A stretch of DNA of 58,468 nucleotides from Natronosalvus rutilus (GTDB taxonomy: Archaea; Halobacteriota; Halobacteria; Halobacteriales; Natrialbaceae). The number at the start of each line of letters is the position of its first letter. Positions within the stretch are counted from its first letter, which is position 1. The position numbers and the translations under genes are program-made. The notes below the pieces were generated by a model. The model was not told the DNA's origin. It was given only the letters and a program-made list of their open reading frames with translations, and did no database searches. The stretch spans positions 1 to 58,468 of the forward strand of contig NZ_CP100358.1 of NCBI RefSeq assembly GCF_024204665.1, given 5' to 3'. This document shows positions 16,479 through 42,691 of this stretch, one piece after another.

Positions 16479-16547
16479 AGCCTGTTACCTCGGTGCAGGT
16501 GAACGATAGACCGCGTTCACCTTAAGGGTTGTCGCTCGTGGTTAACC
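16479..16547 (-). promoter_or_regulatory. Shared promoter module, copy 2
   Basis: It drives the GGCT/AIG2-like gene. GTTAACCACG is here GGTTAACCACGAGCGAC, followed by AACCCTTAAGG and GGTAACAGGCTATG. Confidence 0.8.
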
Positions 16548-17119: not shown

Positions 17120-17185
17120 AGCCTGTTGACCTCAACTAATCGATGGACGGCTTCTACCTTAAGGGTTGTCCTTCGTGGTTAACCG
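17120..17185 (-). promoter_or_regulatory. Shared promoter module, copy 3
   Basis: This is a near-consensus copy, CGGTTAACCACGAAGGACAA, CCCTTAAGG, then GAGGTCAACAGGCTATG. It drives 16946-17119 and 16678-16944. It overlaps the 3' end of the DpdA-like gene by a few bases. Confidence 0.85.
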
Positions 17186-21138: not shown

Positions 21139-22092
21139 TTACCTGAAGTAATCGGCCGCATCGCGGATGAGGAATGACGTGCAGGCCGTGATCTGCCGAA
21201 GGTACTCGTCACCGAGCTGGTAGTCGCTGGGCACGGTGCTGCCCCCGCAGCTCCCGTCCTCGTTGTTCATCTCCGGCTTCGAGTAGATCCCCATCGCCGT
21301 GGGGGCCCACTTGTCGCCCGAGGTGTTCACCGACCTCGCGGCTTCGTAGTGGTAGGTGTTCCCTCGGTCGGGAACATTCTCATAGAGGTCGTTCCACTCG
21401 CCGAAAGCATTGACTCGCGTGAGTGCCATGAGCGCCCCTCGAGTCAGCCGTCCCGTGACGACCTCCCCGTTGGTAACGCGGACGTGCATGTTGTTGTGAC
21501 CGAGCCCGTCGTCTCCGGGGAAGCCGGTGATCGGCGGGTAAATGTCGCTGCTCGTGAGCGCAGGGTCACAGACGTTGACGAGGTTCTCCGCGCACTGAAC
21601 GTTGCAGTCCCCGCCGTAGCTGTCGACTTCGTCGCAGTTCCAGACCTTGATCCGGTCGTTGCCATCAGTCCAGTGATCGCTGATGATGCCGTCAAGTTCC
21701 TGGAGGGAGATGTCCCAGCTCATTGACGAGTCGTGGTCGTAACAGTAGAGCGCCAGACCGTCGAAGTCGGAATCGCCAGCAAGATTCCAGTAATCACCGA
21801 ACGTGTCCTCGGCGTGGTCGAAGGCGGTCTGGGCGTTGTTGTTCTCGTAGCGAGCCATCAACTGAATCTTGGCGACGTTCGCGCCTGACGTGTTGCCCCA
21901 GGTGGCGCTGTCAATGAAGTTGAAGTTGGTGCTCGCGGCCGCCGTTCCCACGATACCAATAGTTGCTCCCGATGCCGCTGCCGCTCGAAGGAAGTTCCGT
22001 CGATTGATGTTGTTGTCAGATCCTTTCATGGATTCTTCTAACCGCTGTAATTTGTTCGCAGAGCTATTCTCCGCCGTATCTGACTCTCTCAT
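21139..22092 (-). CDS. Tat-secreted protein, paralog 2
   Basis: This is a 317-residue protein. The N-terminus has a Tat signal: NRRNFLRAAAASGATIGIV to a cleavage region near AAAST. The mature acidic domain contains Cys pairs (CDEVDSYGGDCNVQC) and HNNMHVRVTNGEVVTGRLTRG, aligning with the paralog at 19915-20976. The MRES start and identical promoter type support a gene duplication that included the promoter. Exported viral proteins of unknown function are candidates for cell-surface effects such as superinfection exclusion or host-surface degradation. Confidence 0.7.
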   Translation of the reverse strand: MRESDTAENSSANKLQRLEESMKGSDNNINRRNFLRAAAASGATIGIVGTAAASTNFNFIDSATWGNTSGANVAKIQLMARYENNNAQTAFDHAEDTFGDYWNLAGDSDFDGLALYCYDHDSSMSWDISLQELDGIISDHWTDGNDRIKVWNCDEVDSYGGDCNVQCAENLVNVCDPALTSSDIYPPITGFPGDDGLGHNNMHVRVTNGEVVTGRLTRGALMALTRVNAFGEWNDLYENVPDRGNTYHYEAARSVNTSGDKWAPTAMGIYSKPEMNNEDGSCGGSTVPSDYQLGDEYLRQITACTSFLIRDAADYFR

Positions 22093-29848: not shown

Positions 29849-30179
29849 GGGGTTGTGTCGGGGTGGGTTCGTCCACTCGTGGTGAGTCCTGTATATCCTC
29901 CGGTTCCGGCTCCTCCTCCTTCTGGGGAGAGTCAGCCGGTGGCGTTCCGGCTTTCCGGGCCTGGGCGATCTGCGTCTGGACGCTCTTGACGAGCTCGTCG
30001 TCGTCGAGCGTGATCTGCACCTCCTTCCCGAGTGTGTCAGTGTTCGGCGTGACGATCACGTCGTGAGCCTCCGCGGCTTCCCGGCTCGCCTCGAGGCGCT
30101 CGGGCGTCGGGTTGTGATCGTCCGGGACGGCGTACAGCACCTTCCGGCGTTCCTCGTCGAGTGTCCCGCAGTCAGTCAT
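29817..30179 (-). CDS. Hypothetical protein, coupled to coiled-coil wHTH gene
   Basis: This is a 120-residue protein. An N-terminal alpha/beta part (VLYAVPDDHNPTPERLEASREAAEAH, then EVQITLDDDELVKSVQTQI) is followed by a Pro/Glu-rich tail ending NSVVTGTPP, the last codons of which are part of an iteron. The start overlaps the stop of 30176-30910 by ATGA. The overlap with the iteron cluster suggests a replication or partition accessory. Not recognised. Confidence 0.5.
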   Translation of the reverse strand: MTDCGTLDEERRKVLYAVPDDHNPTPERLEASREAAEAHDVIVTPNTDTLGKEVQITLDDDELVKSVQTQIAQARKAGTPPADSPQKEEEPEPEDIQDSPRVDEPTPTQPRNSVVTGTPP

Positions 30180-30910
30180 AGCAGGGTCACCCGGTCAGGG
30201 TCGGCCAGCTTCACCATCTTGAACGTTGAGCTGCTGTCCGGCGTCGGCTTCTCGTGGTACTCGAAGGCACCGCCGGTGATATGCTCACGGCCGGCGGAGT
30301 CGGTGACCTCCTCAACTTCCTCGGTCTCGGTGACCGAGAGCTTCGCGAGGGCCTTCATCGCCCGGTACACTTCGGCGTTGTGCAGGGTCTCACCGGTCGC
30401 CGCCTGCAGGTCGACTTTCAGGGCGATCTTGTTGTAGCGCCCGCGGGTGTGGTTCGTCGAGATCACCTGGCCGGCCTGGACGTGTTGTGACCAGTCCCCC
30501 CAGTGCTCGAAGATCGTCACCGCCCGCAGTTTCGAGGTGTTGCCCGCGAGAAGGTCCTGGCGTTCGTCCTCACTCATCGAGGCGTACTTCTCGAGGATGG
30601 TCATATCCTCGTAGTAGTTCCCTGATCGCGGGTCCGTCGGGTCGTCCCCGTCGAGGCGGGCCTGGACGTCGTTGAGGGTCGCGGTCAGTCCGCGGATGGT
30701 CTCCTGTTGTTCACTGACGTCGCTCGCCAGGTCTCGGGTAACCTGTTGCCAGCCGCGGACCTCGTCGCGAAGGTCCTGGACCTCCTCTTTGAGCTCGTCC
30801 GGCGTCAGTTCATCGCACGGTTCATCCTGGCCCTGGCCCTCGATCTCCTCGAGTGTATCGAGCGAGTCGAGGAAGGACCGGTCGTCGTCCGTCAGATTGT
30901 CCGCTGTCAT
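30176..30910 (-). CDS. Coiled-coil plus winged-helix protein, candidate replication initiator
   Basis: This is a 244-residue protein. The N-terminal 95 residues form a long coiled coil (ELKEEVQDLRDEVRGWQQ and ETIRGLTATLNDVQARL). The C-terminal 90 residues look like a winged helix: YNKIALKVDLQAATGETLHNAEVYRAMKALAKL, then a beta wing. Similar coiled-coil/wHTH proteins occur on haloarchaeal plasmids near origins. It lies directly next to the iterons and has its own palindromic TATA GGTTTATAAACC and Shine-Dalgarno GAGGTAACAGGAC. Confidence 0.55.
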   Translation of the reverse strand: MTADNLTDDDRSFLDSLDTLEEIEGQGQDEPCDELTPDELKEEVQDLRDEVRGWQQVTRDLASDVSEQQETIRGLTATLNDVQARLDGDDPTDPRSGNYYEDMTILEKYASMSEDERQDLLAGNTSKLRAVTIFEHWGDWSQHVQAGQVISTNHTRGRYNKIALKVDLQAATGETLHNAEVYRAMKALAKLSVTETEEVEEVTDSAGREHITGGAFEYHEKPTPDSSSTFKMVKLADPDRVTLL

Positions 30911-30952
30911 GTCCTGTTACCTCACGAACACGGGCCGCGTGACGGAGACGGG

Positions 30953-30968
30953 AGGATAGGTTTATAAA
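30953..30968 (-). promoter_or_regulatory. Palindromic TATA of the putative initiator gene
   Basis: GGTTTATAAACC lies about 48-60 bases upstream of the ATG at 30910, which is preceded by GAGGTAACAGGACATG. This leaves a short 5' leader. Confidence 0.5.
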
Positions 30969-31192
30969 CCGCGAAACCGAAAAACCACCCGGCGAGACGG
31001 CGAGGTCCCGGCGGTGGGCTTCCCGTTCTCCAAACTTGTACTGCGCGACCATTTGTGTTCAGTTCCAACTGTGCTTGCCGCATCTATATATATCTACCTA
31101 ACAGGTCAAACGCTCGCATTACCGATTATGCATTCGTGAGAACGAGAGAAGTATCTAACCGAAAAGGCCGTCGTTGGCCGGTGTACGGCGTG

Positions 31193-31600
31193 TTATTTCG
31201 GGAATTCCAGGAAAAGGTCGCGAGTCACCGGATCAACGGTGATCGTCACCTTAACCCCCTTGGCCCCTTCGTCTCCGTAGCCGAGGTCCTCCTCGATGCA
31301 CTCCGGCGGGATGGTCAGCAGGACCGTCCCGTGGGAGTTTTCGCGGATTTTCCGGCTCCCCCGAGCCTTCGCCCCCTGGTTGTAGTACCGGCGGGTGTCC
31401 GCGGTGATCGCGAGCTCCCGCTCGTCCGGGAGGCTGAAGATCGCTGCATGTTCGCCCACATCGAAGGGCGTATTCTCGAGCGTATCCGGCGGGATGGAGA
31501 CGCTTAGGCTGTTTCCAGATTGGTACAATTCTTTCTTTGCGAGGATGATCCTACGCTCGTCGTCAGGCATATCTGCGACCTGTGGTTGTCCTGTGCTCAT
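31193..31600 (-). CDS. Tandem AbrB-like regulator
   Basis: This is a 135-residue protein with two AbrB/MazE-type swapped-hairpin repeats. KKELYQSGNSLSVSIPPDTLEN (about 20-41) and SRKIRENSHGTVLLTIPPECIEED (about 78-101) both keep the G-x-S/T-hydrophobic-x-IPP pattern. Two fused copies in one chain would form a pseudo-dimer. AbrB-like proteins regulate transcription in haloarchaea. The start MSTGQ is preferred over an upstream candidate. Confidence 0.7.
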   Translation of the reverse strand: MSTGQPQVADMPDDERRIILAKKELYQSGNSLSVSIPPDTLENTPFDVGEHAAIFSLPDERELAITADTRRYYNQGAKARGSRKIRENSHGTVLLTIPPECIEEDLGYGDEGAKGVKVTITVDPVTRDLFLEFPK

Positions 31601-31777
31601 CGTACTGTCACACCTATATCGTATCAATCAGTTGGTCGTCAACGTAGTTATATGCTGGGTACCATCTGTAAATACTGATAACGGATCTGTACATATTTGG
31701 TTAAGTAATTTGGATTAGATGACTGGTTAGGTATATGTGGGACAAGTATCTTATAGGACGGCTTACAATGGACCGAT

Positions 31778-32233
31778 ATGGCGAAGGACAGCCTGCTCGG
31801 GCGGGTGAAACGACAGATCGTCACCTGGGGATGGAAGCTCCAGCGCACCTACCGTGACGACCACGGAGCCTACTGCGTCAGGGCCACCTACCGTGGCCAG
31901 ACCTTCTACTGCGTGGCGAAGGAGACTGCTCACCAGGGCCTGGCATCCTTCGGCCCGCGAGTCACGAAACGGGCCGCTGATACCGATAGCCTCCTGGTCG
32001 AATTCTTCGGAGAGGAGCCCCGCTTAGGCGAGGCATACGTGTTCGACCCCGCGTTCGTCCTCGAGGTCGCTGACGAAAGCCGGGGGGCATCGAAAAAGGG
32101 CCAGATCACCACCTGGTATGAGCTCCCGCTCGATCACGGAGCCATCCTCGGTGACGTCGTGAGCGGTCGCGATGAACCTGATCGGGACGTCAACGAACAC
32201 AAACCGCGTCCCGTGAAAATTACCGATTACTGA
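31778..32233 (+). CDS. Hypothetical protein
   Basis: This is a 151-residue protein. A basic N-terminus (AKDSLLGRVKRQIVTWGWKLQRTY) leads to beta strands YCVRATYRGQTFYCVAKET and a VEFFGEEPRLGEAYVFDPAFVLEV block. An N-terminal PD-(D/E)XK-like look was considered but the catalytic residues do not line up. A TATA-like CTTATAG lies about 26 nt upstream. It overlaps the convergent gene 32227-32508 by 7 bases at the 3' end. Confidence 0.5.
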   Translation: MAKDSLLGRVKRQIVTWGWKLQRTYRDDHGAYCVRATYRGQTFYCVAKETAHQGLASFGPRVTKRAADTDSLLVEFFGEEPRLGEAYVFDPAFVLEVADESRGASKKGQITTWYELPLDHGAILGDVVSGRDEPDRDVNEHKPRPVKITDY

Positions 32234-32508
32234 CTCGCCGGCCCTTCGCCGTCGGTCTCATCGTGGTCCTTTAGGTCGCCTCGAGAGATCCGGTTGATTT
32301 CGTCCATGTCTTCGTGAATCCAGGCGAACACTTCCTCGGCTGCTTCCAAGAAGTCAACCATCACGTCGTCAGTTATCCCGACGTCAACCGTTTTTTCGTC
32401 CCCGATGAACCGGACTTTCTTTATATCCTCGGCGCTGTCAAACAACTCGATCTCCCGGACCCACCTGACCGACTCATCCGGTTCGTCGTCTGGCCTGTTA
32501 CCTCTCAT
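32227..32508 (-). CDS. Acidic hypothetical protein
   Basis: This is a 93-residue protein. A charged N-terminus (MRGNRPDDEPDES) precedes VRWVREIELFDSAEDIKKVRFIG, then helices. The start MRGN lies four bases after the stop of 32513-32671. Unknown; it is second or third in the winged-helix operon. Confidence 0.5.
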   Translation of the reverse strand: MRGNRPDDEPDESVRWVREIELFDSAEDIKKVRFIGDEKTVDVGITDDVMVDFLEAAEEVFAWIHEDMDEINRISRGDLKDHDETDGEGPASQ

Positions 32509-32512
32509 CGAT

Positions 32513-32671
32513 TTACTCCTCGCCCGTGATCTCGCGTTGCCACTGTTTGAACGCTTCCCGTCGGGCCTCGTTATCCTCGCGCATCTGCTGCTCGAGGGGG
32601 ATGGGTTCGGCATCCCGGAGCTTCTCAAGTTCGTCCTCGGCCTCGGCCTCGATTTCGTCGCGGGTGGCCAT
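32513..32671 (-). CDS. 52-residue charged helical protein
   Basis: This gene encodes 52 residues, almost all charged and helical (RDEIEAEAEDELEKLRDAEP, then MREDNEARREAFKQWQREI). The ATG follows the stop of the winged-helix gene by four bases. Probably a small coiled-coil partner. Confidence 0.5.
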   Translation of the reverse strand: MATRDEIEAEAEDELEKLRDAEPIPLEQQMREDNEARREAFKQWQREITGEE

Positions 32672-32675
32672 CGGT

Positions 32676-32930
32676 CTATCCCTCAACCCACCAGACTCGG
32701 GCGTTCGCTCCGACCTTCTTCGTGAGCACGCGGTCGTCCTCGGCGAGCTCGTGGAGTCGGTTGTGGGCGGTCGGCTTCGAGCAGCCGACTCGCTGGGCGA
32801 CTTCCTTGTTGGTGAGCGGCTCCGGGTGAGCCTCGAGCAGCGCGTCGACGACGTCGTCGTCGCTGTACTTATCCTTGAACTTCCCGCCTTCGCCGTGTTC
32901 GACGTTTCCTCGGACTTTGCTTTCTGTCAT
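32676..32930 (-). CDS. Winged-helix regulator, candidate controller of the module regulon
   Basis: This is an 84-residue protein. A DNA-binding winged helix (about 22-80) reads DDVVDALLEAHPEPLTNKEVAQRVGCSKPTAHNRLHELAEDD split around the recognition helix, then RVLTKKVGANARVWWVEG as wing. It is expressed from a leaderless promoter with TATA-like TTTATTA about 25 nt before the ATG. A variant operator, GTGGATAACCG on this strand, overlaps the start site. The divergent gene 33021 carries the consensus GTTAACCACG. This arrangement makes it the best candidate repressor or activator of the module regulon, with autoregulation. Confidence 0.65.
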   Translation of the reverse strand: MTESKVRGNVEHGEGGKFKDKYSDDDVVDALLEAHPEPLTNKEVAQRVGCSKPTAHNRLHELAEDDRVLTKKVGANARVWWVEG

Positions 32931-32945
32931 ACAGCGTCCCATACG

Positions 32946-32955
32946 GTTATCCACG
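32946..32955 (-). promoter_or_regulatory. Variant operator in winged-helix gene promoter
   Basis: GTTATCCACG on the plus strand differs from GTTAACCACG by one base. It lies between the TATA-like TTTATTA and the ATG at 32930, where a bound protein would block transcription. Confidence 0.5.
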
Positions 32956-32968
32956 TAATAAAGCCTGC

Positions 32969-33020
32969 GGTTAACCACGAGGACAATCCTTAAGAACGCC
33001 GGCATCGTTGTCACGGCCAT
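32969..33020 (+). promoter_or_regulatory. Shared promoter module, copy 12 (no start block)
   Basis: GGTTAACCACGAGGACAATC is followed by CTTAAG. The ATG at 33021 lies 26 nt after the TATA-like, so this copy is leaderless and lacks the AACAGGCT start block. Confidence 0.75.
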
Positions 33021-33332
33021 ATGTCGATCACTCACCCGACCAGTTCGGCTGCCTCGGTACTGACCGATGGCGACACCGAGCTCGTCCAGGAGCTCGAGGA
33101 AGCGGCCACTGACCGATGGGGAGACGAGTGGGCGATCTCCATCCGGCGGTGGTCTGACGGCTCCGCGCAGATCTACGCCGAGCACCTCGTCGGACTGACC
33201 GAGGACGGCCATCGCGAGAAAGAGCGGTTGTGGCCCGATGGGGACGGCGGCTTCCTCCACGACGCCGTCACCGTCGAACGGCCGGCGACCGTCAGCCACG
33301 ACGTGATCGAGGAGCAGGTGCGCTCCGAATAA
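33021..33332 (+). CDS. Hypothetical protein opposite the regulator
   Basis: This is a 103-residue protein, alpha/beta, with TELVQELEEAATDRWGDEWAI then RWSDGSAQIYAEHLVGL and a HDAVTVERPATV end. It is divergent from the winged-helix gene and its promoter holds a consensus operator. No family recognised. Repression by the neighbour is inferred. Confidence 0.5.
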   Translation: MSITHPTSSAASVLTDGDTELVQELEEAATDRWGDEWAISIRRWSDGSAQIYAEHLVGLTEDGHREKERLWPDGDGGFLHDAVTVERPATVSHDVIEEQVRSE

Positions 33333-33353
33333 AATCGTGGGGCCGCGGTGGCC

Positions 33354-33500
33354 CTACGCGAAGTACAGCCCCCGGAAGCAAGTCGGGCACACTACCCGGA
33401 CGCTTCCGTAGCGGGTTTTCACGTCCCGCCAGTCGCTTTGTTCGAACGGCCCTTCTTTGGCCGCGTTGTACTCCTTGCCGCATCCGTCACATATTGTCAT
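33354..33500 (-). CDS. 48-residue zinc mini-protein
   Basis: This gene encodes 48 residues. CDGCGKEYN (4-12) and CPTC (about 38-41) form a zinc ribbon. The ATG at 33500 is set by module copy 13. It shares the CDxCGKxYN opening with the next gene (33628-33774), so the two arose by duplication. Confidence 0.65.
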   Translation of the reverse strand: MTICDGCGKEYNAAKEGPFEQSDWRDVKTRYGSVRVVCPTCFRGLYFA

Positions 33501-33570
33501 AGCCTGTTTCACCTCCTGCATGCATTGCATGGACAGTATGTACCTTAAGGGTTGTCCTTCGTGTTTAACG
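33501..33570 (-). promoter_or_regulatory. Shared promoter module, copy 13
   Basis: CGTTAAACACGAAGGACAAC, CCCTTAAGG and GGAGGTGAAACAGGCTATG. The operator is AACAC like copy 10. Confidence 0.8.
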
Positions 33571-33627
33571 GTCACGCATTGCGGTTTCGGTGTTCGAACC
33601 GCGACGACGACGGGCCGCGGTGGCCCG

Positions 33628-33774
33628 TCAGTTGTTCCGGATCAGCTTCCGGTGGCACTTGTCGCAGAGTGTCTCGAGCGTTTCATCGTAGCCGGGGACG
33701 TCGTAGCGCCCCGCCCAGAATCTGTCGCCGAGGAACTGGTTGTACACCTTTCCGCATGCGTCACAATCTGTCAT
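33628..33774 (-). CDS. 48-residue zinc mini-protein, paralog
   Basis: This gene encodes 48 residues. CDACGKVYN (4-12) and CDKC (37-40) form a zinc ribbon. The opening CDxCGKxYN is shared with 33354-33500. The ATG is set by module copy 14. The stretch also has a basic tail RKLIRNN, so nucleic-acid binding is possible. Confidence 0.65.
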   Translation of the reverse strand: MTDCDACGKVYNQFLGDRFWAGRYDVPGYDETLETLCDKCHRKLIRNN

Positions 33775-33847
33775 AGCCTGTTTGTCACCTCCTGCATGCA
33801 TTCGATGGACAGTATGTGCCTTAAGGGTTGTCCTTCGTGTTTAACGG
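33775..33847 (-). promoter_or_regulatory. Shared promoter module, copy 14
   Basis: CGTTAAACACGAAGGACAAC, CCCTTAAGG and GGAGGTGACAAACAGGCT before ATG. It faces copy 15 across 34 bases, giving divergent promoters. Confidence 0.8.
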
Positions 33848-33880
33848 TCACGTCTGGCGTTTTTGCTGGCTTGTTAGCAC

Positions 33881-33946
33881 GGTTAACCACGAAGGACAAC
33901 CCTTATTATAACCCGTGTGTATGGACTACTTGGAGGTCAACAGGCT
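33881..33946 (+). promoter_or_regulatory. Shared promoter module, copy 15
   Basis: GGTTAACCACGAAGGACAAC, CCCTTATTATA and GGAGGTCAACAGGCTATG. It drives the amidoligase and class II amidotransferase genes. The TATA is changed to CTTATTATAA. Confidence 0.85.
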
Positions 33947-34984
33947 ATGAGACACAACGGAAGCAGCCCATTTACGCACGGAATGGAGATCGAACAATTC
34001 CCCGGGGCCTGCCCGCGGGAGGTTCGCAACTACACGATGAACAACGACCGCGGCGAGCTCACTGACTGGCACAACGACATGAGCGGCCCGCGGGAGACCA
34101 GCATCGGGGCATACAAGAACTGCAAGACCATCCTCAACCGGTTTTACGCCGACACCCGCGACGAGGATATCACCTGGGACTGGCACGCCAGTCACGAAGG
34201 GGCCGGCGCAGGAAGCCACGTCCACCTCTGTGTGGCCGGTGACGTGTTCGACGACCCGATCACGGCCTGGACTATCAGCTACAACACCGTGGCCGAAGTC
34301 TTCCCCTTCCTGGCCCCCTTCTTCTGTCACAACTGGGAGGAGGGATTCCGGGACGGGAGCCAGCGCGGGTACGGCAGCAGCCTCAACGTCGAGCACTGGG
34401 CCGAAGGTCAGCTCACCCGGTACAGTCAGGACAGCATCGAAAGTCACGTTAACCGCCCGCGGAGCTTCAACCGAAGCTACAACAGCGTGACCTTCAACCC
34501 CGCGGCCGGGAACAAGCCGGTGACCATCGAACTCCGGGCGAACGACGCCCACCCCGCGATGGCACTCAACGGCCTGCTCCTCATCCGCCGGCTGACCGGC
34601 CGAGCCATCGAGGGCGGCTGGTCACCGAAGCTGGAGAACCACCGCGCGACCCTCGAGGCGTGCTACGAGACGATTTACCGACGCGCGGCTGACGTCGGCC
34701 TGCTCACCGCGATGAAGGAGCAGATCCCGGGCGGGATCACCTTCCAGGAGGACCGCGGCCTCCCGGGCATCGACAAGCGCGAATTCGACACCATGTGGGA
34801 GGTACTCCGGGCGATCATGGTAGCCTTCCCGCAAACCCCCGGCACCTGGCGCAAGCGCAGCCACATTCTGGTCCGCAGCGGCCGGGATGAATACGGCCCA
34901 CAGAACAACCCCGACGCACTCTGGAACTTCGACGCCCCGCGCGGGGAGTTCGAATGGGACCACGGCCCGGAGCAGGAGGACTAA
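33947..34984 (+). CDS. Amidoligase (glutamine synthetase-like COOH-NH2 ligase)
   Basis: This 345-residue protein matches the amidoligase superfamily. HGMEIEQFPG (11-20) gives metal-binding Glu14 and Glu16. GAGAGSHVHLC (85-95) gives His91 and His93, and TIELRAND (193-200) gives Glu195 and Arg197 for ATP and metal binding. The fold resembles glutamine synthetase and forms amide bonds between a carboxylate and an amine at ATP cost. The ATG at 33947 follows the module start block exactly, so an upstream in-frame start is rejected. The class II amidotransferase starts four bases downstream of its stop, so the two are co-translated. Its substrate is unknown. Confidence 0.82.
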   Translation: MRHNGSSPFTHGMEIEQFPGACPREVRNYTMNNDRGELTDWHNDMSGPRETSIGAYKNCKTILNRFYADTRDEDITWDWHASHEGAGAGSHVHLCVAGDVFDDPITAWTISYNTVAEVFPFLAPFFCHNWEEGFRDGSQRGYGSSLNVEHWAEGQLTRYSQDSIESHVNRPRSFNRSYNSVTFNPAAGNKPVTIELRANDAHPAMALNGLLLIRRLTGRAIEGGWSPKLENHRATLEACYETIYRRAADVGLLTAMKEQIPGGITFQEDRGLPGIDKREFDTMWEVLRAIMVAFPQTPGTWRKRSHILVRSGRDEYGPQNNPDALWNFDAPRGEFEWDHGPEQED

Positions 34985-34988
34985 GCCG

Positions 34989-35561
34989 ATGTGTTGGATG
35001 AGCGTTTACCGCGGTGAGGATGCGGTTTCGCAGGCGCTGACGGCTTGCCAGGAGAACGAACAACACTCGGGCGGGCATTCGTGGGGCTTCGCGGCCGTCA
35101 CTGACGACGGCCTCGAGATCGGGCACGGCCTCGGTGAGATTCCCCCGTATGTCTCTTCGGTGTGTGACGGCTCCGAACTGGCCCTGGGCCACACGCGGCA
35201 CGCCACCCGCGGGGAGATCACCCTGGAGAACGCCCACCCGTTCCCGGTGTACGACGCCGAGGGTGAGGCGGTCGCGGCCCTGGCTCACAACGGCACCTGG
35301 TACGAAGCCCCGGACGACGGCCGGTGTGACAGCTACCACATTGCCCGGCTGCTCGAGACGATGTACCGTCACAACGACGAACCGTTCGAGGACGTCGTCA
35401 GGGACGCCGGTGAGATAACCGGCGAGACCATCACCGTGATCCATCGCGACGGCCGGGCGTTCGCATACGCCGGCCGCTTCGGAATCACCACTGACGGTGA
35501 GGCAGCGATCAGGAGCTCGGGCGAGGAGCCGATACGGCCCGGCCGGGTGGTCGAACTCTAA
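34989..35561 (+). CDS. Class II glutamine amidotransferase-like protein
   Basis: This is a 190-residue Ntn-hydrolase of the class II amidotransferase type. The catalytic Cys2 lies right after the start (M-C-W). GHTRHATRG (67-75), NAHPF (81-85) and HNGTWYE (100-106) are the binding-loop motifs, and CDSYHIAR (113-120) follows the usual order. The domain hydrolyses glutamine and releases ammonia. Its location four bases after the amidoligase indicates that it supplies ammonia for, or otherwise works with, that ligase. Length is typical for a free-standing domain. Confidence 0.85.
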   Translation: MCWMSVYRGEDAVSQALTACQENEQHSGGHSWGFAAVTDDGLEIGHGLGEIPPYVSSVCDGSELALGHTRHATRGEITLENAHPFPVYDAEGEAVAALAHNGTWYEAPDDGRCDSYHIARLLETMYRHNDEPFEDVVRDAGEITGETITVIHRDGRAFAYAGRFGITTDGEAAIRSSGEEPIRPGRVVEL

Positions 35562-35612
35562 GCGGCCCGCGGCCCGCGGCCCGCGGCTCGACCAGCGAAC
35601 CTCTTTTCTCGG
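35562..35612 (+). terminator. GC-rich heptamer repeat and T-rich stretch
   Basis: Three tandem GCGGCCC units and one GCGGCTC (35562-35589) are followed by CTCTTTTCTC. They lie just after the amidotransferase stop. Probably a transcription terminator; the tandem heptamer itself is unusual. Confidence 0.4.
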
Positions 35613-35621
35613 CTGTTACCA

Positions 35622-35691
35622 CGGTTAACCACGAACGACAACCCTTAAGGTATAACGGGTATATGGACTGCATGTAGGAGGTCAACAGGCT
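35622..35691 (+). promoter_or_regulatory. Shared promoter module, copy 16
   Basis: CGGTTAACCACGAACGACAA, CCCTTAAGG and GGAGGTCAACAGGCTATG. Drives 35692 and 35984. Confidence 0.85.
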
Positions 35692-35982
35692 ATGAACGGA
35701 ACTACTACGAAACGACTGGAGGACCGGACGACTGAATTCATGCACGCGCTGGCCGCGGCCGACGTCGACGCCGCCAATATCTCGGCTGACCGCAGCGGGG
35801 CCGGCATGATGGTACACACCTGGCTCCCCGAGGCGGACCTCGAGGCAGCCGAGGAGATCGCCGGCGACCACGGCTTCGAACTGTACGGCGAGACCCTCAC
35901 CGAACTGAAGGCGAAGTACAACCGCGCGGCCGCAGATCAGGGCCGGAAGCGATACCGCTTCGAAGCCGAGGAGGGGGCCTAA
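35692..35982 (+). CDS. Hypothetical protein
   Basis: This is a 96-residue protein with helices MHALAAADVDAANIS and DLEAAEEIAGDHGFELYGETLTEL, ending in a basic GRKRYRF. It is set by module copy 16 and is followed by 35984-36277 after one base. Unknown. Confidence 0.5.
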   Translation: MNGTTTKRLEDRTTEFMHALAAADVDAANISADRSGAGMMVHTWLPEADLEAAEEIAGDHGFELYGETLTELKAKYNRAAADQGRKRYRFEAEEGA

Positions 35983-35983
35983 G

Positions 35984-36277
35984 ATGAACGCCGAACAACA
36001 CCCGCTCGACTCGGACGACCGCGAGAAGACGGTCACCCACGAGGACGTCGACGTCCGGGCAACGATCAGCGCGGACGGGAAGCGCGTCCGGCTGACGGTG
36101 ACCGACCAGGACGGTGACCGCGAGCGGTACCAGCTCCGAGGGCTCACCCTCAACGGGACGCCCATCCGGGCCGGCCAGCCACTCTCGCTGTACGGCGTCG
36201 ACGCCGTGATCGAATGGCAGAACGGCGGGCTCGGTCTGTACCCCGGCGTGAACGTGATCGTCTCCCGGGACGACTAG
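35984..36277 (+). CDS. Hypothetical beta-rich protein
   Basis: This is a 97-residue protein: strands DVRATISADGKRVRLTVTDQ and LRGLTLNGTPIRAGQPLSLYGV suggest a small beta sandwich. It shares the operon with 35692. No family seen. Confidence 0.5.
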   Translation: MNAEQHPLDSDDREKTVTHEDVDVRATISADGKRVRLTVTDQDGDRERYQLRGLTLNGTPIRAGQPLSLYGVDAVIEWQNGGLGLYPGVNVIVSRDD

Positions 36278-36290
36278 CGCCGGCCACCCG

Positions 36291-36398
36291 GTGCTCACCA
36301 CGCCCCGGCCGCACTGCCGGGCCAGGTTCTGGCTCGCCATCGGTCTCATGCTGATCCCGCCCGCCGGCCTCGCGCTGGCGGTGGCACTGCTCACGTAA
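36291..36398 (+). CDS. Possible 35-residue single-TM microprotein
   Basis: GTG-started frame of 35 residues with a hydrophobic stretch (FWLAIGLMLIPPAGLALAVA) ending LLT. No clear Shine-Dalgarno; it follows the 35984-36277 gene by 13 bases. Weak support. Confidence 0.35.
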   Translation: MLTTPRPHCRARFWLAIGLMLIPPAGLALAVALLT

Positions 36399-36417
36399 CT
36401 CCTTTTCACCCGTCCAC

Positions 36418-36487
36418 GGTTAACCACGAGGCACAACCCTTAAGGTGTACCCCGTCCATGCAATGAATGCAGGAGGTAACAGGCAAC
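36418..36487 (+). promoter_or_regulatory. Shared promoter module, copy 17
   Basis: GGTTAACCACGAGGCACAAC, CCCTTAAGG and AGGAGGTAACAGGCAACATG. The start block here is AACAGGCAAC. Confidence 0.85.
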
Positions 36488-36898
36488 ATGGCAACCGCAT
36501 ACCGACACTTACCGGCCAAAGCGCCGGTCGACCGTATCGAACAGCACGACGACGTCCCGCAGATCCCAGGCCCCTGGGAGCTCATCGAGGACCCATCTGA
36601 CCGCCCCTTCGACGCCCGGGCCGCCTGGGCTCACCGTGAGACCGGCCAGATCGTCGCCGTAGTCAAGAACGTCCGACCGACCCAGATGCACACCCCGGAG
36701 ACGTCCCGCGACGACACCGGGTACAACGCCCGGGTGTACCGCCCTGACACCACCGGCGAACGCGACCTCTCCAGTGAGCTCGGCTCGAAGGACGCCGCCT
36801 GGGTCAGCGCCATCCGCTTCATGGCGAAGTACCCTGCCGGCGACTACGAAATCCCCGAACTGGACACCTGGGACTACGGCACCACGGTGGAGTGGTAA
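36488..36898 (+). CDS. Hypothetical protein
   Basis: This is a 136-residue alpha/beta protein. GPWELIEDPSDRPFDARAAWAHRETG and GQIVAVVKNVRPT form strands, and AAWVSAIRFMAKYP a helix. The ATG at 36488 is chosen from the module rather than an earlier in-frame start. First gene of a cassette with 36901-37365 and others. Confidence 0.5.
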   Translation: MATAYRHLPAKAPVDRIEQHDDVPQIPGPWELIEDPSDRPFDARAAWAHRETGQIVAVVKNVRPTQMHTPETSRDDTGYNARVYRPDTTGERDLSSELGSKDAAWVSAIRFMAKYPAGDYEIPELDTWDYGTTVEW

Positions 36899-36900
36899 CG

Positions 36901-37365
36901 ATGAGCGACGACTTCCCCACCCCCGACGGCGTCGAGCTCGCTGACGAGACGGAGCGACCGGGCGAGCCGCTGTACCCCGGCACTCACACCATCGTCGACC
37001 GGGAGAATGAAGCGTTGACCCAGGGCGAGGTGATCCAGGTCTGGTTCGAAACCTACGCTGACGGGTTCGGCACCGAGCTCGTCACCGCGGAGCTCCTGGT
37101 GATCGGTGACGACGGCGAAGGCGATATCTTCGCCGTCCCAGCCCACCAGGACTTCTCCGACACCTCGAGGGTGTACCGCCTCGCCGGCGATCTCGAAACC
37201 ATCCAGGCCGGGTACGTGATCCCCGTCCCAGACTACGACCACGAGGAGGGCGTCCTGACGGTCACCCGCGAAGTGATGGTCCAAGGTAACCCGAAAAACG
37301 ACCTCATCGAAGCCCGCAGCCAGGGAATTGAGGGGTTCTGGACCCACAACGGCAGGGAGCTATGA
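36901..37365 (+). CDS. Hypothetical protein
   Basis: This is a 154-residue acidic protein. VIQVWFETYADGFGTELVTAELLVIGDDG forms a beta-rich core, then VYRLAGDLETIQAGYVIPV. The start follows the 36488 gene by two bases. No known family. Confidence 0.5.
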   Translation: MSDDFPTPDGVELADETERPGEPLYPGTHTIVDRENEALTQGEVIQVWFETYADGFGTELVTAELLVIGDDGEGDIFAVPAHQDFSDTSRVYRLAGDLETIQAGYVIPVPDYDHEEGVLTVTREVMVQGNPKNDLIEARSQGIEGFWTHNGREL

Positions 37366-37428
37366 GCCGTCAGAACACCCCCGACACGGAGGGATACCCC
37401 CCTAAAACCACCACCAGGATTAATAACA

Positions 37429-37641
37429 ATGGTTCACCTACGCGAGATAAGTGTGATGAACGTGTCGCTCACAGAACACCGGCTCGAAAACCTGCACACG
37501 GCAGCCATCCTGACCGCGTTCGGCGTGATCGGGGTCGGGTTCGTTGGTGTTCTCAACCACATGATCGGCATCCCGGTCATCGCAGTGTGCCTGCTCGTGA
37601 TCGGGTACACGACCCTCAAGCTGGCGGAATTCGAAGACTGA
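37429..37641 (+). CDS. Two-TM membrane protein
   Basis: This is a 70-residue protein with two hydrophobic segments (LHTAAILTAFGVIGVGFVGVL and IPVIAVCLLVIGYTTL). A start at 37429 or MNVS at 37456 is possible. An overlapping longer frame from 37362 has composition typical of a wrong frame. Function unknown. Confidence 0.55.
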   Translation: MVHLREISVMNVSLTEHRLENLHTAAILTAFGVIGVGFVGVLNHMIGIPVIAVCLLVIGYTTLKLAEFED

Positions 37642-37708
37642 CGACGCGCCGACCGGGTCACGAGCTCGAACGCCCGCCCGGCCGCCTCGAGGAGCAGGTG
37701 ATCCCGGC

Positions 37709-37960
37709 ATGAACGGGTACGACCTGGCCGACGCGATCTCCGGTCACGACGCTGCCGAGCTCGTCGACTTCACCCGCGACGGGTACCGACGGATTATCGC
37801 CCTCGCCCACACTTCCCGGGCGAAGTACCGCCTGATCGACCTCGCGGAGCAGGCCGGCTTCGATGTTACTGTCGCCGGTGAGCTCGACGAGGAAACGCGA
37901 GCCTATCGGCTCACGTTGATGGTTCCTCAGAAGGTCCGGGAAGGAGGTAACAGGCTATGA
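37709..37960 (+). CDS. Hypothetical protein
   Basis: This is an 83-residue protein: helical N-terminus GYDLADAISGHDAAELVDFTRDGY, then HTSRAKYRLIDLAEQAGFDV. Its last codons (EGGNRL) are encoded by the Shine-Dalgarno and start block of the next gene, with which it overlaps by ATGA. Confidence 0.5.
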   Translation: MNGYDLADAISGHDAAELVDFTRDGYRRIIALAHTSRAKYRLIDLAEQAGFDVTVAGELDEETRAYRLTLMVPQKVREGGNRL

Positions 37961-38088
37961 AACTTCCTTCGGACCGCATCCTCACTATACCGGGTGGAAG
38001 TAAAAAGCCTGCGTCACGTCAGGCAAACGTGAGACCAGTACGCGGCCACAGTGACGTCGGCTGCCTCGCCGGTGGTCGCGATGAGTGA
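37957..38088 (+). CDS. Hypothetical small protein after start block
   Basis: This is a 43-residue basic protein (start MKLPSDRIL). The start is preceded by GGAGGTAACAGGCTATG, the same start block as in the module but without a promoter. It overlaps the next ATG at 38081 by 8 bases (ATGAGTGA). Confidence 0.5.
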   Translation: MKLPSDRILTIPGGSKKPASRQANVRPVRGHSDVGCLAGGRDE

Positions 38089-38401
38089 GACTGCAACCCC
38101 CGGGTCCGGCCCCCCAGATCACCGGAAGCACGCCGACTGGGTCGCGATCACGAACTGCCACGGTACCCAGCGCCGAATCCATAAGGTGAAGGGCAACCCC
38201 GGCCCGGGCGAAATCCAGAACGGTGACGAGGTGGAGGTCGCCTGTAAAACCTCCCTCGTCGGGAGTGAGTCCTCCTGGAAGGCAAAGCCCGCTGCCGTGT
38301 TCCCGCCCGGGTACCATCCGCTTTGTGACTGCCCGGAGTGCTTCGGTGAGGAGATCGGTGAAACCGATGGCGACGGGCGGGGCCAGGGCCAGGATCAGTA
38401 G
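38081..38401 (+). CDS. Hypothetical protein with zinc-like pair
   Basis: This is a 106-residue protein, last plus-strand gene of the cassette. HRKHADWVAITNCHGTQRRIHKV leads to strands, and CDCPEC (about 87-92) may bind zinc. A basic, Gly-rich tail follows. It converges with 38395-38991 and overlaps it by 7 bases. Confidence 0.5.
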   Translation: MSETATPGSGPPDHRKHADWVAITNCHGTQRRIHKVKGNPGPGEIQNGDEVEVACKTSLVGSESSWKAKPAAVFPPGYHPLCDCPECFGEEIGETDGDGRGQGQDQ

Positions 38402-38991
38402 GACAGGTTGAGCGCCTCCACGATCACGTCCTGGGCCGTCTTTACGTACCGCGCGACCTGGTGATCGTGGAAGTTCTCCGGGTCCAGGCGTTTCTTCGGG
38501 TAGTACCGCTCCTGGAGCCGCTGACAGTGCTCGAGCTTGATCTCGCGCATGGTCCGCTCCTGGAGGTTCCCGTGCATGTGCCGCCGCTCGTACCACTGAC
38601 GGGCATCGTCCTGGAACACCCGCAGATCTCCCTCCATTTCGAGGTACTTCTTCAGGCTGATCGACCGCTTCTCACAGAGTCCCGCCAGGAACTCACTCGC
38701 GACTATCCACCACCAGTCGTTGCCCTTCGACCGGTGAACCTCACCGAAGTCGACCAGGACCGATGCCGTGTTCCAGGTCTCCGGCCCCGCTTTCCCGAGC
38801 TCCTCCTGGAGCCGGGAGTGCGTGACCATCGGAGGGTCGCCGTTGACGATCACGAAGTACGCCTCGCTCACTTCCTCGAGGGTGACGTCCCGCTCGGTCG
38901 CGATCTCCTGGAGCTCCTCCAGTTCCTCGGAAAACAGCGCCTCGAACCGGGCGAACTGCGGCCCCGGCCCATCGTCTCGCTTCGGGCTCAT
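38395..38991 (-). CDS. Hypothetical protein, end of tail block
   Basis: This is a 198-residue protein. An acidic coiled N-terminus (FEALFSEELEELQEIATERDVTLEEVSEAYF) precedes a basic C-terminal part (RRHMHGNLQERTMREIKLEHCQRLQERYY). The start MSPKRDD is fixed by TGATG overlap with 38991-39374. Probably part of lysis or tail module; no motif recognised. Confidence 0.5.
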   Translation of the reverse strand: MSPKRDDGPGPQFARFEALFSEELEELQEIATERDVTLEEVSEAYFVIVNGDPPMVTHSRLQEELGKAGPETWNTASVLVDFGEVHRSKGNDWWWIVASEFLAGLCEKRSISLKKYLEMEGDLRVFQDDARQWYERRHMHGNLQERTMREIKLEHCQRLQERYYPKKRLDPENFHDHQVARYVKTAQDVIVEALNLSY

Positions 38992-39374
38992 CACGACAGC
39001 CATGTCCCCGTGGTGAGCGTGATCGCCCCGACACCCAGGAGGAACGCCCCCAGGAAGTGCCACGGCTCCCACCTGATCGTCTTTAGCGCGATGCTCTTTT
39101 CGTACTCGTCAGCGTCGTGAGAGAGTGACCGCAGGAACGGCCGGCCGAAAAGTGCGTACCCGACCAGGCCAGCCCCCGAGAAGAAGCCGATGGCCTCGTA
39201 GCCGATCAGGTAGGCCACGGTGACCAGGATGCCAGAACCGATGCCGATAACGTGAGCGTGAAACTCGTTTACCGAGATCGGGTGATCGATCACCGGAACA
39301 CGGTACAGGACGTCGTCGCCCGCCCGAAGCCGGTCCTCGAGCTCGGCCGGCTGGCGGTCGTCGACCTCACTCAT
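38991..39374 (-). CDS. Membrane protein of possible lysis module
   Basis: This is a 127-residue protein. Three likely hydrophobic stretches (about 43-61 VIGIGSGILVTVAYLIG, 64-85 AIGFFSGAGLVGYALFG, 108-126 FLGAFLLGVGAITLTTG) lie between acidic segments. It overlaps both neighbours. Membrane proteins after tail genes are often holin-like or entry related. This is inferred from position only. Confidence 0.55.
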   Translation of the reverse strand: MSEVDDRQPAELEDRLRAGDDVLYRVPVIDHPISVNEFHAHVIGIGSGILVTVAYLIGYEAIGFFSGAGLVGYALFGRPFLRSLSHDADEYEKSIALKTIRWEPWHFLGAFLLGVGAITLTTGTWLS

Positions 39375-39822
39375 CCTCCTCGCCTCCGTCTGGAAAGAGG
39401 TCGCCCCCGTCGTCCCGGACGATATCGTCGTCCAGGTGTGTCTCAATCCGGTGTAGCGCCCGCTGGGTCGAATGGGCGTGCTGGGCAACCCGCGCCTCGA
39501 GGTGCTCGATGGAGGTCCCGTTCTGCTCGGATTGGTCTTTGACCGAGTGAATCTCCGCTGATAAGGATTCGATGTCTTCTTCCGCCCGCTGTATCTCGGT
39601 CGCCCGCTGGGAGACGGCTCCCCGGTCAGAATCGTCGTCCGGGTGGCCGAAAAGCCGCGTCGTGAGCTGCACAAATCCCCGGTCCAGATCGCTGATCGCC
39701 TTCCCGTTCTTGTCGATGTCCTCCTGTTGTTTCCCGTCCCGCCGGTACAGAAAGCCAGCTCCCGTACTGGCCAGGCCGATCACCCCGAGAAGAGCCGCGA
39801 GAAAGAGATTGGGGTCTTGCAT
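39367..39822 (-). CDS. TM plus coiled-coil protein
   Basis: This is a 151-residue protein: one N-terminal TM (about 3-25: NLFLAALLGVIGLASTGAGFLY). A long acidic coiled coil (about 60-120) and an Asp-rich tail follow. The ATG at 39822 is chosen over a GTG 12 bases upstream, since GGGTGG precedes it. Possible spanin-like or membrane-tethered partner of the next gene. Confidence 0.55.
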   Translation of the reverse strand: MQDPNLFLAALLGVIGLASTGAGFLYRRDGKQQEDIDKNGKAISDLDRGFVQLTTRLFGHPDDDSDRGAVSQRATEIQRAEEDIESLSAEIHSVKDQSEQNGTSIEHLEARVAQHAHSTQRALHRIETHLDDDIVRDDGGDLFPDGGEEDE

Positions 39823-39967
39823 CAGGTAACCCACCCTACGAGTATGGTATTACACATGACTTACACGGGAAAAGGAAGTCCCCGAGTATTTACTTTTCCG
39901 TACCTGGAGGTCTCGAACCGATGGGGTTGAGGTGGGCCAAAAAACAGCGATCTGCCGCTTGTGAAGG

Positions 39968-42691
39968 CTACTCCGTGGTGGTGTGGTCGTGTTCGACCTC
40001 GGAGAAGTCCGGGTCGTGGTGATCGTTCCCGTGCGGGCTCGGTGCGTAGGCGTCCTCCATCGCCGGCCCGCCGAAGAAGATCCCCTTCTCGCTAATCATA
40101 TCTATCGAACTGGCGACACTGCCCGTCCCGTTCGTGAAGTTGATCCAACTCCCGGAAAACAGGTTGACGGTATCCGCGGTCGCGTTATGGGCGTTGATCC
40201 AGGAGCCCCGCGTGGCCTCGATAGACCGACTGCCAGTGTTGACCGCTGATCCACCGGAGAAGTTGATCCGGGCCCCCTCGTAGGCGAGTACTCCCTGGAC
40301 GCTTGCGCCGTCCACTGACGCACCCGAGGCGTTTACCGTCGACCCTCGGTTCGCGACGATACCGTCCCCGTTCGAATCGGTCAGATCAGCGTTGTGGACG
40401 TTGATCGTCGAGGCGTAGTCCGCCCGGACGTTATCGGCGTTCGTCGAAGCCCGCGCATCGTGAGCGTTGATCGTCGACGACCGAGTCGCCTCGATGCCGG
40501 TCTGGCTGCAGAGATTGGCTTCCCCGTTGTGGAAGTTGATCGTCGACCCCTCGTAGGCGAATACACCGGCGAAATCCGCGGAGCTGCAGTAGGCTCCGGT
40601 CGCGTGAACTATCGAACCGTTCTGGGCCGCGATGCCGTCCGTTCCCGCCGAACTGCAGTCGGCGTTCCGGGCCGACACCAGCGACCCATCGTGACAGTCG
40701 ATGCCCCGCTCCGTGGCGTCTGAAAGGTCCGCCTCGTTCGCGTACACTCGGGATGCTCCTTCCGAGACCACCGCGTTCCCGCCGGCGAGCGAGCAGTCCC
40801 CGCCGTTGACCGTCAGCGTCGACGAGCCATACGACAGGACGTTATCCCCGCCGTTCTCCCTGATCGTTGCGTCCTGGGCGTTCACCGCTGACGCTCGGGT
40901 CGCCTCGGCCCCGCGTTCGCCGTTGTTGGTCGCGGTCCCGTTGTCGAAGTTGATCCGGCCGGCCTGGTACGCCAGAAGCCCCTTCCGGTCGTTATCGGTC
41001 GTTGAGGCTTCCCCCGCGTTCACCACTGACCCTCGAAGCGCGGAGAGACCATCGCGACCGCTGCCGCTCACCTCACCGCCCTGGAAGTTGATGAACGATA
41101 CCTCGTTCGCCGTCACCCCATCGACAGCATCGACGGTCCCACAGTCGGTCACCACGGCGTTCTCGGCGTTAATGATGCACGCCCGGGACGCGATCACGCC
41201 CTCCGCGCCGCTTCCCGTGGCCGTCCCCGTGTTGAAGTTGATAACCGACCCCTCGGTCGCCAGGGCACAGTGCCTCGTCGGCCCGTCGACGGTCGCCCCT
41301 TCGGCGTTCACCGCGGAGCCCCGAAGCGAGACCACTCCGTCCTGGGCCCCGCCCGTGATCTGCACGTTCGGGCAGTTGACCATCGATGCCTCGTTCGCGA
41401 CGAGGGCGTCGTGGCCGGGGTTCTCGATCACCACCCGCTCGGCGTTGATGAGACAGTTGCGGCTCCCGACCATCGCCTGCCCGCCGGTGTTCTTTGCAAT
41501 CCCGTCCGTGAAGTTGACCGTCGACCCCTCGATGGCCAGGACCGCGTGCCGGAACGCCCCGCTCGCGTCGACGGAGTCGGCGTTGATCGTCGACCCCCGC
41601 AGCGCCGCGACGTTATCCCGCTCTTTCCCCCCGGTGCAGATCGACCCTTTGATGCTGATCGTTGAGGACCGGTTCGCGACGACGTTGTCGCTGACGCAGT
41701 CCGTGATCGTACAATCCTCGGCGTTGAACCGGCTCCCGCCGGTCCCGACAATCCCGTGGGTGCCGGCCTCCGAGAAGTCTGACTCGGCCGCCTCGATCAC
41801 CGACCCACTGATCGAAACAGCACAGTCGTCTAGGGAGCGCCGGAAGGTCCCCCCGGTCGCGTACAGCGTCGACCCCCGCGTAGCCATCAGGTTGTGGTGG
41901 ACGGCGTCCTCGGCCTCGGCGTTTTCTGCGACGATGGTGCTCCCCCGGCTCGCGTGGATGCCGATATCCCCACACCAGTTGGCCGTGATCCCGTCGGCCA
42001 GCGCCCGTGACCCATTCAGCGCCCACAGGCCGTTCCCGGCCGAATTCATGTCCGGCGTCTCGCCTTCGTACACGCCGCCTGCCTCGAACTCGTCACGGTT
42101 GCCCGTCCCGCTGACGTCCGCACCCCGCGCGTCGACGAACGCCCCATCGTGAGCCGCGATGCCGAAGACGTCGCCGTCGACGGTCGGGAACTGATACCTG
42201 GCGTCGGTCGTCACTGACCCTTCCCCGCCCGTCACCAGGAGCCCGCCGGCGTTCACCCCTGACTCGAGGTCCTCACCGTGAACCTCGATGTTCGTCACCT
42301 CACCGAAGCTCGTGTTATCGATATGCAAAAACGGCTGCATGAGCCCGTGGGAGGTCTGTACCGTCTCCCCGTCAGATAGGCCCGTCTCGATCACCGCGCC
42401 GTTCCCGAGCCCGACGATGTTCACCGCCCCGGCCTGGGCGTGCGTCACCGTCGTCGTTTCCTCCCATCGACCGCCCGAATAGCTCCCCTCCGCGACCTCG
42501 ATCACCACCCGCGAGTTGACCGGCAGGAGCTCGTACTCGATCTGCTCGATGGCGTCCTTGATCGTGTCGTAGTCCTCTGGTACCGAAAGGACGACGTCTG
42601 ACTCTTCTGCCTGAAATCCCGTTGCTATCAGACTGCCCTCAATGAAGGCAAACGAATTCCGCTCCGGAAGCTCGTCGTTATTTCCGGACAT
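39968..42691 (-). CDS. Right-handed beta-helix tail spike
   Basis: This is a 907-residue protein. Residues about 150-860 form many repeating coils with patterns such as GSTINAxxA and GVxAxxGSxVNA, typical of a parallel beta-helix adhesin. The N-terminal part (about 30-140) resembles pectate-lyase-like starts (VPEDYDTIKDAIEQIEYELLP). The C-terminus, SPHGNDHHDPDFSEVEHDH, is a His-rich motif also found in the protein at 43395-44321. The protein probably attaches to the tail by one end and binds or degrades cell surface polysaccharide. This is the largest gene of the tail module. Confidence 0.75.
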   Translation of the reverse strand: MSGNNDELPERNSFAFIEGSLIATGFQAEESDVVLSVPEDYDTIKDAIEQIEYELLPVNSRVVIEVAEGSYSGGRWEETTTVTHAQAGAVNIVGLGNGAVIETGLSDGETVQTSHGLMQPFLHIDNTSFGEVTNIEVHGEDLESGVNAGGLLVTGGEGSVTTDARYQFPTVDGDVFGIAAHDGAFVDARGADVSGTGNRDEFEAGGVYEGETPDMNSAGNGLWALNGSRALADGITANWCGDIGIHASRGSTIVAENAEAEDAVHHNLMATRGSTLYATGGTFRRSLDDCAVSISGSVIEAAESDFSEAGTHGIVGTGGSRFNAEDCTITDCVSDNVVANRSSTISIKGSICTGGKERDNVAALRGSTINADSVDASGAFRHAVLAIEGSTVNFTDGIAKNTGGQAMVGSRNCLINAERVVIENPGHDALVANEASMVNCPNVQITGGAQDGVVSLRGSAVNAEGATVDGPTRHCALATEGSVINFNTGTATGSGAEGVIASRACIINAENAVVTDCGTVDAVDGVTANEVSFINFQGGEVSGSGRDGLSALRGSVVNAGEASTTDNDRKGLLAYQAGRINFDNGTATNNGERGAEATRASAVNAQDATIRENGGDNVLSYGSSTLTVNGGDCSLAGGNAVVSEGASRVYANEADLSDATERGIDCHDGSLVSARNADCSSAGTDGIAAQNGSIVHATGAYCSSADFAGVFAYEGSTINFHNGEANLCSQTGIEATRSSTINAHDARASTNADNVRADYASTINVHNADLTDSNGDGIVANRGSTVNASGASVDGASVQGVLAYEGARINFSGGSAVNTGSRSIEATRGSWINAHNATADTVNLFSGSWINFTNGTGSVASSIDMISEKGIFFGGPAMEDAYAPSPHGNDHHDPDFSEVEHDHTTTE

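Follow-up and report, generated by a model that had tools for sequence, protein, structure and literature searches.

The question raised by this locus is whether two adjacent genes of a haloarchaeal virus, together with a third gene some distance away, form an enzyme set which makes and removes amide bonds, and what such a set could act on. The window, by which we mean the whole stretch of DNA analysed, is the entire contig C4 of 58,468 bases in a haloarchaeal genome of four contigs (G000). Its reading frames include PHROG matches to the terminase large subunit, portal, major head protein and tape measure protein, and the window is therefore the genome of a head-tail virus which forms its own replicon. 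Megablast of positions 1-25000 against phages and of 30000-40000 against plasmids gave no match. The window shares few frames with the virus phiCh1. They include the ligase-amidotransferase pair and a winged-HTH gene as well as methyltransferases and a gene of the HNH type; the remainder of the window is largely unrelated to phiCh1, and the IMG/VR contig G657 (L002/L045/L046) is closer. The pair lies inside an island at about 33.9-38.4 kb which is transcribed opposite to most of the genome, and the AT-skew changes there. The features needed below are the following.

15921-16478, minus strand: GGCT/AIG2-type gamma-glutamyl cyclotransferase (PF06094)
16521-16547, minus strand: box before the GGCT gene, weight-matrix (PWM) score 46.8
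17179-18261, minus strand: DpdA, which inserts 7-deazaguanine in DNA (PF23859, E 1.1e-25; PHROG 1279); the gene immediately upstream is small and follows the box at 18551
32676-32930, minus strand: winged-HTH protein of the phiCh1 gp38/ChaoS9_205 type, 84 aa, candidate regulator
33881-33907, plus strand: box before the ligase gene, GGTTAACCACGAAGGACAACCCTTA, PWM score 45.8
33947-34984, plus strand: predicted ligase P0001, 345 aa, its ATG preceded by AACAGGCT
34989-35561, plus strand: class II (Ntn glutaminase) amidotransferase P0003, 190 aa, stand-alone

The ligase and its superfamily

The initial annotation called the 33947 protein an amidoligase with the motif residues E14/E16, H91/H93 and E195/R197, and these are present as described. 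They belong to a series consisting of GMEIE (E14, E16), D44-S46/E50, H91/H93 and E195/R197. The three residue pairs are invariant in six homologues with a lowest identity of 48%, and in all six the motifs GxExE, D(G)S...E, HxH and E-[FLY]-R follow each other in this order. When twelve recognised Amidoligase_2-type proteins were used for comparison, GMEIE, DxSGPxE, SHVH and IELR aligned in the same order with GxExE, DGSL...E, [ST]HxH and IEFR. The motif spacings are 77/104 in the ligase family, 67/94 in the L019 homologue and 64-74/88-96 in the 12 known members. The fetched loci contain 495 distinct reading frames whose length is 200 aa or above. A search pattern of three motifs, G.E.E-(50-95)-H.H-(70-125)-E[FLYM]R, matches 21 of these, each being the ligase, one of its homologues or a recognised amidoligase; in shuffled ligase sequence the pattern was found 33 times in 100,000.

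Sequence profiles, by which the initial annotation had proposed to check the assignment and whose failure it had named as a refutation, did not place the protein. Searches with the ligase in Pfam and NCBIfam and an hmmsearch of PDB sequences gave no usable match, PF12224 gave none at E<=1 for P0001 or at E<=10 for the homologues, and hhalign against the 12 amidoligases gave no motif-aligned match. The ligase is matched by PHROG 23742 (E 4.5e-183), a family labelled there as of unknown function. Since the profiles are negative, superfamily membership rests on the motifs and the predicted fold.

AlphaFold2 models of P0001 and of the L019 homologue have low confidence (mean pLDDT 45.5 and 51.9), and both match almost only GS-fold ligases (YbdK, Dop, PafA, GCL, GS); the 50 structural neighbours listed for each of these two low-pLDDT models all belong to the glutamine-synthetase superfamily. 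The best listed neighbour of P0001 is Dop 7oyh (Z 5.5, 3.8 A, 112 residues) and that of the L019 homologue is YbdK 1r8g (Z 8.1, 5.4 A, 224 residues), followed in the latter case by Dop, PafA and then glutamate-cysteine ligase and glutamine synthetases; the lists re-examine Foldseek's own candidates, and a Z of 7-8 is possible between unrelated folds. Foldseek with the first (P0001) model found nothing below E 0.9 in the PDB, and in BFVD the phiCh1 homologue only. Z is thus insufficient when taken alone, and what makes the assignment convincing is that uniform structural lists come together with the motifs. The predicted protein resembles YbdK/glutamate-cysteine ligase 2 and Dop/PafA in fold and in the order of the metal-binding Glu/His/Arg motifs, but outside the motifs sequence similarity to YbdK and Dop/PafA is not detectable. 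Pup, the protein on which Dop and PafA work, is not known from haloarchaea.

The negative profile searches would also be expected if the motifs were a coincidence in an unrelated viral protein which is not an amidoligase. This is the least probable of the readings weighed here: it is at variance with the specificity of the pattern (21/21), with four aligned motifs at family spacing, with structural lists confined to the GS superfamily for two different query sequences, and with the constant amidotransferase partner described below. The claimed class is therefore upheld by motifs and predicted fold and left without backing from Pfam, NCBIfam and hhalign. The evidence supports the 33947 protein as a very divergent member of the amidoligase (COOH-NH2 ligase) superfamily with a predicted GS-type fold. 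Because it stays below the PF12224 cut-off it is placed in a separate family of the superfamily and not in Amidoligase_2; as judged from sequence, the ligase, phiCh1 gp41 and ChaoS9_220 are one family outside Pfam and NCBIfam.

Two variants of the gene were noted. The ligase of L005 (2027-3313) has a C-terminal extension which resembles helix-hairpin-helix, a possible nucleic-acid link. In the metagenome contig L004 (1426-2500) the ligase frame contains one in-frame stop, and the partner amidotransferase gene is intact.

The amidotransferase and the constancy of the pair

Four bases (GCCG) separate the ligase stop from the start of the amidotransferase (GATase), which has Met1-Cys2 and the loops GHTRHATRG, NAHPF and HNGTWYE, so that the description of a class II enzyme four bases downstream was accurate. 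Seven homologues show no variation in the cores C2, HTR-x-ATRG, NAHPF and HNGTW. A profile of the family finds the PurF/GlmS glutaminase domains in the PDB (E 1.6e-6 to 6e-5) and, in numerous haloarchaeal genomes, proteins of about the size of GlmS (E 1e-9 to 3e-14). The 34989 product is, from its conserved active-site motifs, a class II glutamine amidotransferase. It has no synthase domain, and its ammonia must therefore be used by a partner.

The GATase could be a gamma-glutamyl hydrolase instead. GATase_4 is the family of EgtC/YafJ. In ergothioneine synthesis EgtA and EgtC are a GS-fold ligase and a partner with class II amidotransferase fold, working within a longer pathway, and the window pair is alike in this combination. 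An alternative reading along these lines hypothesizes that the ligase attaches an amine to the gamma-carboxyl group of glutamate in the manner of YbdK, GCL and EgtA, that an EgtC-like class II enzyme later removes the gamma-glutamyl group, and that GGCT recycles it; the product would be a small metabolite and not an amidated macromolecule. In its favour, GATase_4 is the best Pfam match of P0003 (21.4 against a cut-off of 23; the L019 homologue reaches 24.4 against 23), the L019 ligase model has as its best match YbdK, which is of the gamma-glutamyl:cysteine ligase type, and GGCT, a gamma-glutamyl enzyme, is present in two of the viruses. However, the longer profiles put the GATase nearer to the PurF and GlmS glutaminase domains and most relatives lack GGCT, and we regard this reading as unlikely.

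The ligase was found in eight virus records (the window, G657, ChaoS9, phiCh1, L004, L005, L019 and L018/L020), and each of them also carries the GATase, with the ligase first; in the L018/L020 record the two lie at opposite ends of one contig. The close layout is retained in phiCh1, ChaoS9 and G657, the gap being three bases in G657. The most divergent relatives have about 640 bases between ligase and GATase (L019 9361-10001). The pairs gp41-gp40 of phiCh1 and ChaoS9_220-ChaoS9_215 are true orthologues, with order and ligase box as in the window and with 74-75% identity for the ligase and 55% for the GATase; they are annotated as an uncharacterized protein plus a glutaminase or GATase, and both genomes are without GGCT and DpdA. 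The dN/dS values of three pairs, 0.23-0.27 for the ligase and 0.25-0.41 for the GATase, place both genes under purifying selection. For phiH1 the pair is listed as absent (table in PMC6471424).

Among 391 genomes of the class a strong match to the ligase was found in G000 and G046 only, with a weak fragment in G388 (E 0.005), and two scans of genome contigs found no ligase relative. The haloarchaeal chromosome of G146 (L086 6797-8400, minus strand) encodes an Amidoligase_2 protein which overlaps a class II GATase, and this is an independent second archaeal version of the pair.

The pairing also recurs in phages, among them LUZ24 (gp18-gp19), vB_EcoP_YF01, StenR_269 and Proteus phage 3H10_20. 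The cassette of LUZ24/phiEco32/RIO-1-type phages combines a PF12224 Amidoligase_2 with GATase_6, a COOH-NH2_lig (PF14395), an ATP-grasp and GGCT. Like it, the window has an amidoligase closely followed by a class II GATase, a possible GGCT and a proposed host-modifying role. It differs in that its hosts are archaeal and without peptidoglycan, that the ligase is unmatched by PF12224, that the GATase is a bare domain of 190 aa as against 510 aa in LUZ24, that GGCT is unlinked and in relatives mostly absent, and that the pair has its own operator box and winged-HTH gene. A second ligase of the PF14395 type was sought in G000 (including the window), G657, ChaoS9, phiCh1, G661 and G662 and none was found, the LUZ24 control being positive; a search of the window contig and relatives for a RimK-like ATP-grasp gave no match, as did the LUZ24 control.

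The operator box, its candidate regulator and the accessory genes

The box was analysed with a weight matrix built from the sites in the window. Its consensus is GGTTAACCACGAAGGACAACCCTTAAG, and the start codon usually lies 60-75 bases downstream of the first base of the box. The window holds 16 boxes and shuffles hold 0, the maximum score in shuffles being 9.5. Most of the boxes precede coding starts, including those of the ligase, GGCT, the small gene next upstream of DpdA, the two Tat-signal paralogues described below and several small CxxC proteins. The promoter module which the ligase and GGCT were claimed to share does exist, both in the window and in G657; as the box also stands before about a dozen further genes it is not specific for the trio.

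In the relatives the box is much more restricted. In the phiCh1 genome (58.5 kb, both strands) the box, also written as GGTTAACYACGNNGGACAACC, has only two sites above noise, one before the ligase gene gp41 (33.7) and one before the winged-HTH gene gp38 (17.7). L004 likewise has two, before the ligase (38.8) and the winged-HTH gene (18.4), and the 21 kb of ChaoS9 searched contain the ligase site (33.7). The boxes of G657 are those of the ligase (47.1), of GGCT (35.0), of a gene at L045:3801 and one opposite the ligase. The winged-HTH protein is 65-70% identical in phiCh1, ChaoS9, G657 and L004 and 50% in L005, and a longer frame of its gene matches HTH_IclR (E 6.7e-8). The gene accompanies the pair in the window, G657, ChaoS9, phiCh1, L004 and L005; it was not found in L018/L019, and in the most divergent relatives of the L019 type neither box nor winged-HTH gene was found.

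Because the phiCh1 boxes stand only before the ligase and the winged-HTH gene, the usual unit seems to consist of box, ligase and GATase together with a candidate regulator of its own, and this unit appears to occur in otherwise unrelated viruses. The winged-HTH protein probably reads the box, the ancestral arrangement would be box-ligase-GATase-(box)-HTH, and the box has multiplied within the lineage of the window. Two Tat-signal paralogues of the window (19915-20976 and 21139-22092, both minus strand), without other family match, have boxes at 21046 and 22162, and the DNA upstream of the two genes is 86% similar.

The GGCT gene at 15921-16478 is genuine, as was claimed: the protein scores 48.7 bits against PF06094 (GGACT; cut-off 22.8, E 1.4e-12) in a match beginning at residue 65, with YGTLR at 68-72 (Y68-R72) and E122. 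Its N-terminal 60 aa contain CxxCW-H...CGTH, which looks zinc-binding and is kept in G657. G657 is the only relative with GGCT (58% identical), so that just two pair-bearing virus records contain the gene. It was not found in complete phiCh1, complete ChaoS9, G661 and G662 and is therefore an accessory of one lineage. This rules out an obligate trio of ligase, GATase and GGCT, and of the three-gene set that had been claimed the pair is the constant part; GGCT is a genuine accessory and not a constant part of the cassette. The presence of the box before GGCT also in G657 makes a functional link with the pair somewhat likelier than chance.

DpdA, just downstream of a box-bearing gene, brings in a further possibility, namely that DpdA inserts 7-deazaguanine in the viral DNA and that ligase and GATase then amidate a carboxylated base (CDG to ADG-like). 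DNA with 7-deazaguanine and traces of dADG is known in a halovirus (PMC6884629), and the C-terminal extension of the L005 ligase would fit. DpdA occurs, however, in no other virus record with the pair, complete phiCh1 and ChaoS9 included, so that the pair does not depend on it; a link to DNA modification is lowered accordingly and we consider it improbable. The reading frames scanned showed no genes for preQ0 synthesis, and the same situation is reported for HRTV-29.

The proposed reaction, its target and its meaning

The model which we propose takes its mechanism from reactions well established for both enzyme families. With its Cys2, the class II amidotransferase would split glutamine to glutamate and ammonia. 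The GS-fold ligase, with ATP and metal bound at its Glu/His residues, would activate a carboxylate as an acyl-phosphate, which would react with that ammonia, or with a small amine, to give a carboxamide. The cassette's own winged-HTH protein would read the operator-promoter box in the strand-reversed accessory island. The cassette is probably of the fitness ('moron') type and would alter a host or virion molecule, with a possible benefit such as blocking of superinfection or evasion of defence, and GGCT as an accessory may trim gamma-glutamyl products. The direction of ammonia flow, the acyl-phosphate chemistry, the binding of the box by the winged-HTH protein, the substrate and the benefit are what we infer here. 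We give an about even chance to the reading that the pair are glutamine-dependent amide-forming enzymes in a strand-reversed fitness cassette under the box.

Haloarchaea have no peptidoglycan, and the usual explanation from bacterial phages therefore cannot apply as such. For bacterial podoviruses the proposal is that these cassettes change the peptidoglycan of the host and so guard against superinfection (PMC5498523, PMC10580990). A corresponding suggestion for the surface of Natrialba-like hosts is that amidation of poly-gamma-glutamate or a similar wall polymer by the pair keeps other viruses out; besides the podovirus precedent, it could draw on CapC (PF14102, E 4.6e-24), which marks poly-gamma-glutamate synthesis and is present in G046, a genome with a phiCh1-like element, and on the box common to the two Tat-signal proteins. 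No CapC match was found, however, in the window's own host genome G000, which lowers poly-gamma-glutamate as a common substrate, and the host of ChaoS9 is a Halobacterium, not known for such a polymer; we regard this suggestion as very improbable. With CapC missing from G000 and DpdA confined to the window, neither the polymer nor a DNA modification can account for every carrier.

The amide-forming model can be put in a more specific form, which we hold tentatively and with less confidence than its general form: a new amidoligase family, which otherwise unrelated haloarchaeal head-tail viruses would carry as a self-regulated cassette of operator box, ligase, GATase and winged-HTH gene, would make a carboxamide on an archaeal target other than peptidoglycan, and in the lineage of the window the operator would have spread to at least 12 accessory genes, giving a provirus regulon with GGCT, DpdA and two exported proteins.

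The prediction that these families act together reportedly goes back to the comparative work of Iyer et al. in 2009. The set had been called unusual for an archaeal virus, and so it is, but the GATase of phiCh1 and ChaoS9 was already known: ChaoS9_215 and phiCh1 gp40 carried the annotation class II GATase or glutaminase, and the gene is counted among the metabolic genes of tailed viruses of archaea (PMC8651126). Among the best eight matches of a literature search there was no halovirus paper mentioning an amidoligase. Three points are new: the upstream gene is identified as a ligase of the amidoligase superfamily, the two genes are constantly paired, and their operator is conserved and has a candidate regulator.

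In a model archaeal virus, a protein of 345 aa which was labelled 'uncharacterized' can thus be described as a predicted ligase whose catalytic residues are specified, and phiCh1 obtains a concrete candidate promoter/regulator pair. The cultured virus-host pairs phiCh1/Natrialba magadii and ChaoS9/Halobacterium salinarum are suited to testing the model. Amidoligase-GATase cassettes of bacterial phages are usually explained by remodelling of peptidoglycan or the cell wall (PMC5498523, PMC10580990); the presence of a conserved cassette of this kind, under separate regulation, in viruses of hosts without peptidoglycan suggests that the shared function of these cassettes may lie elsewhere.
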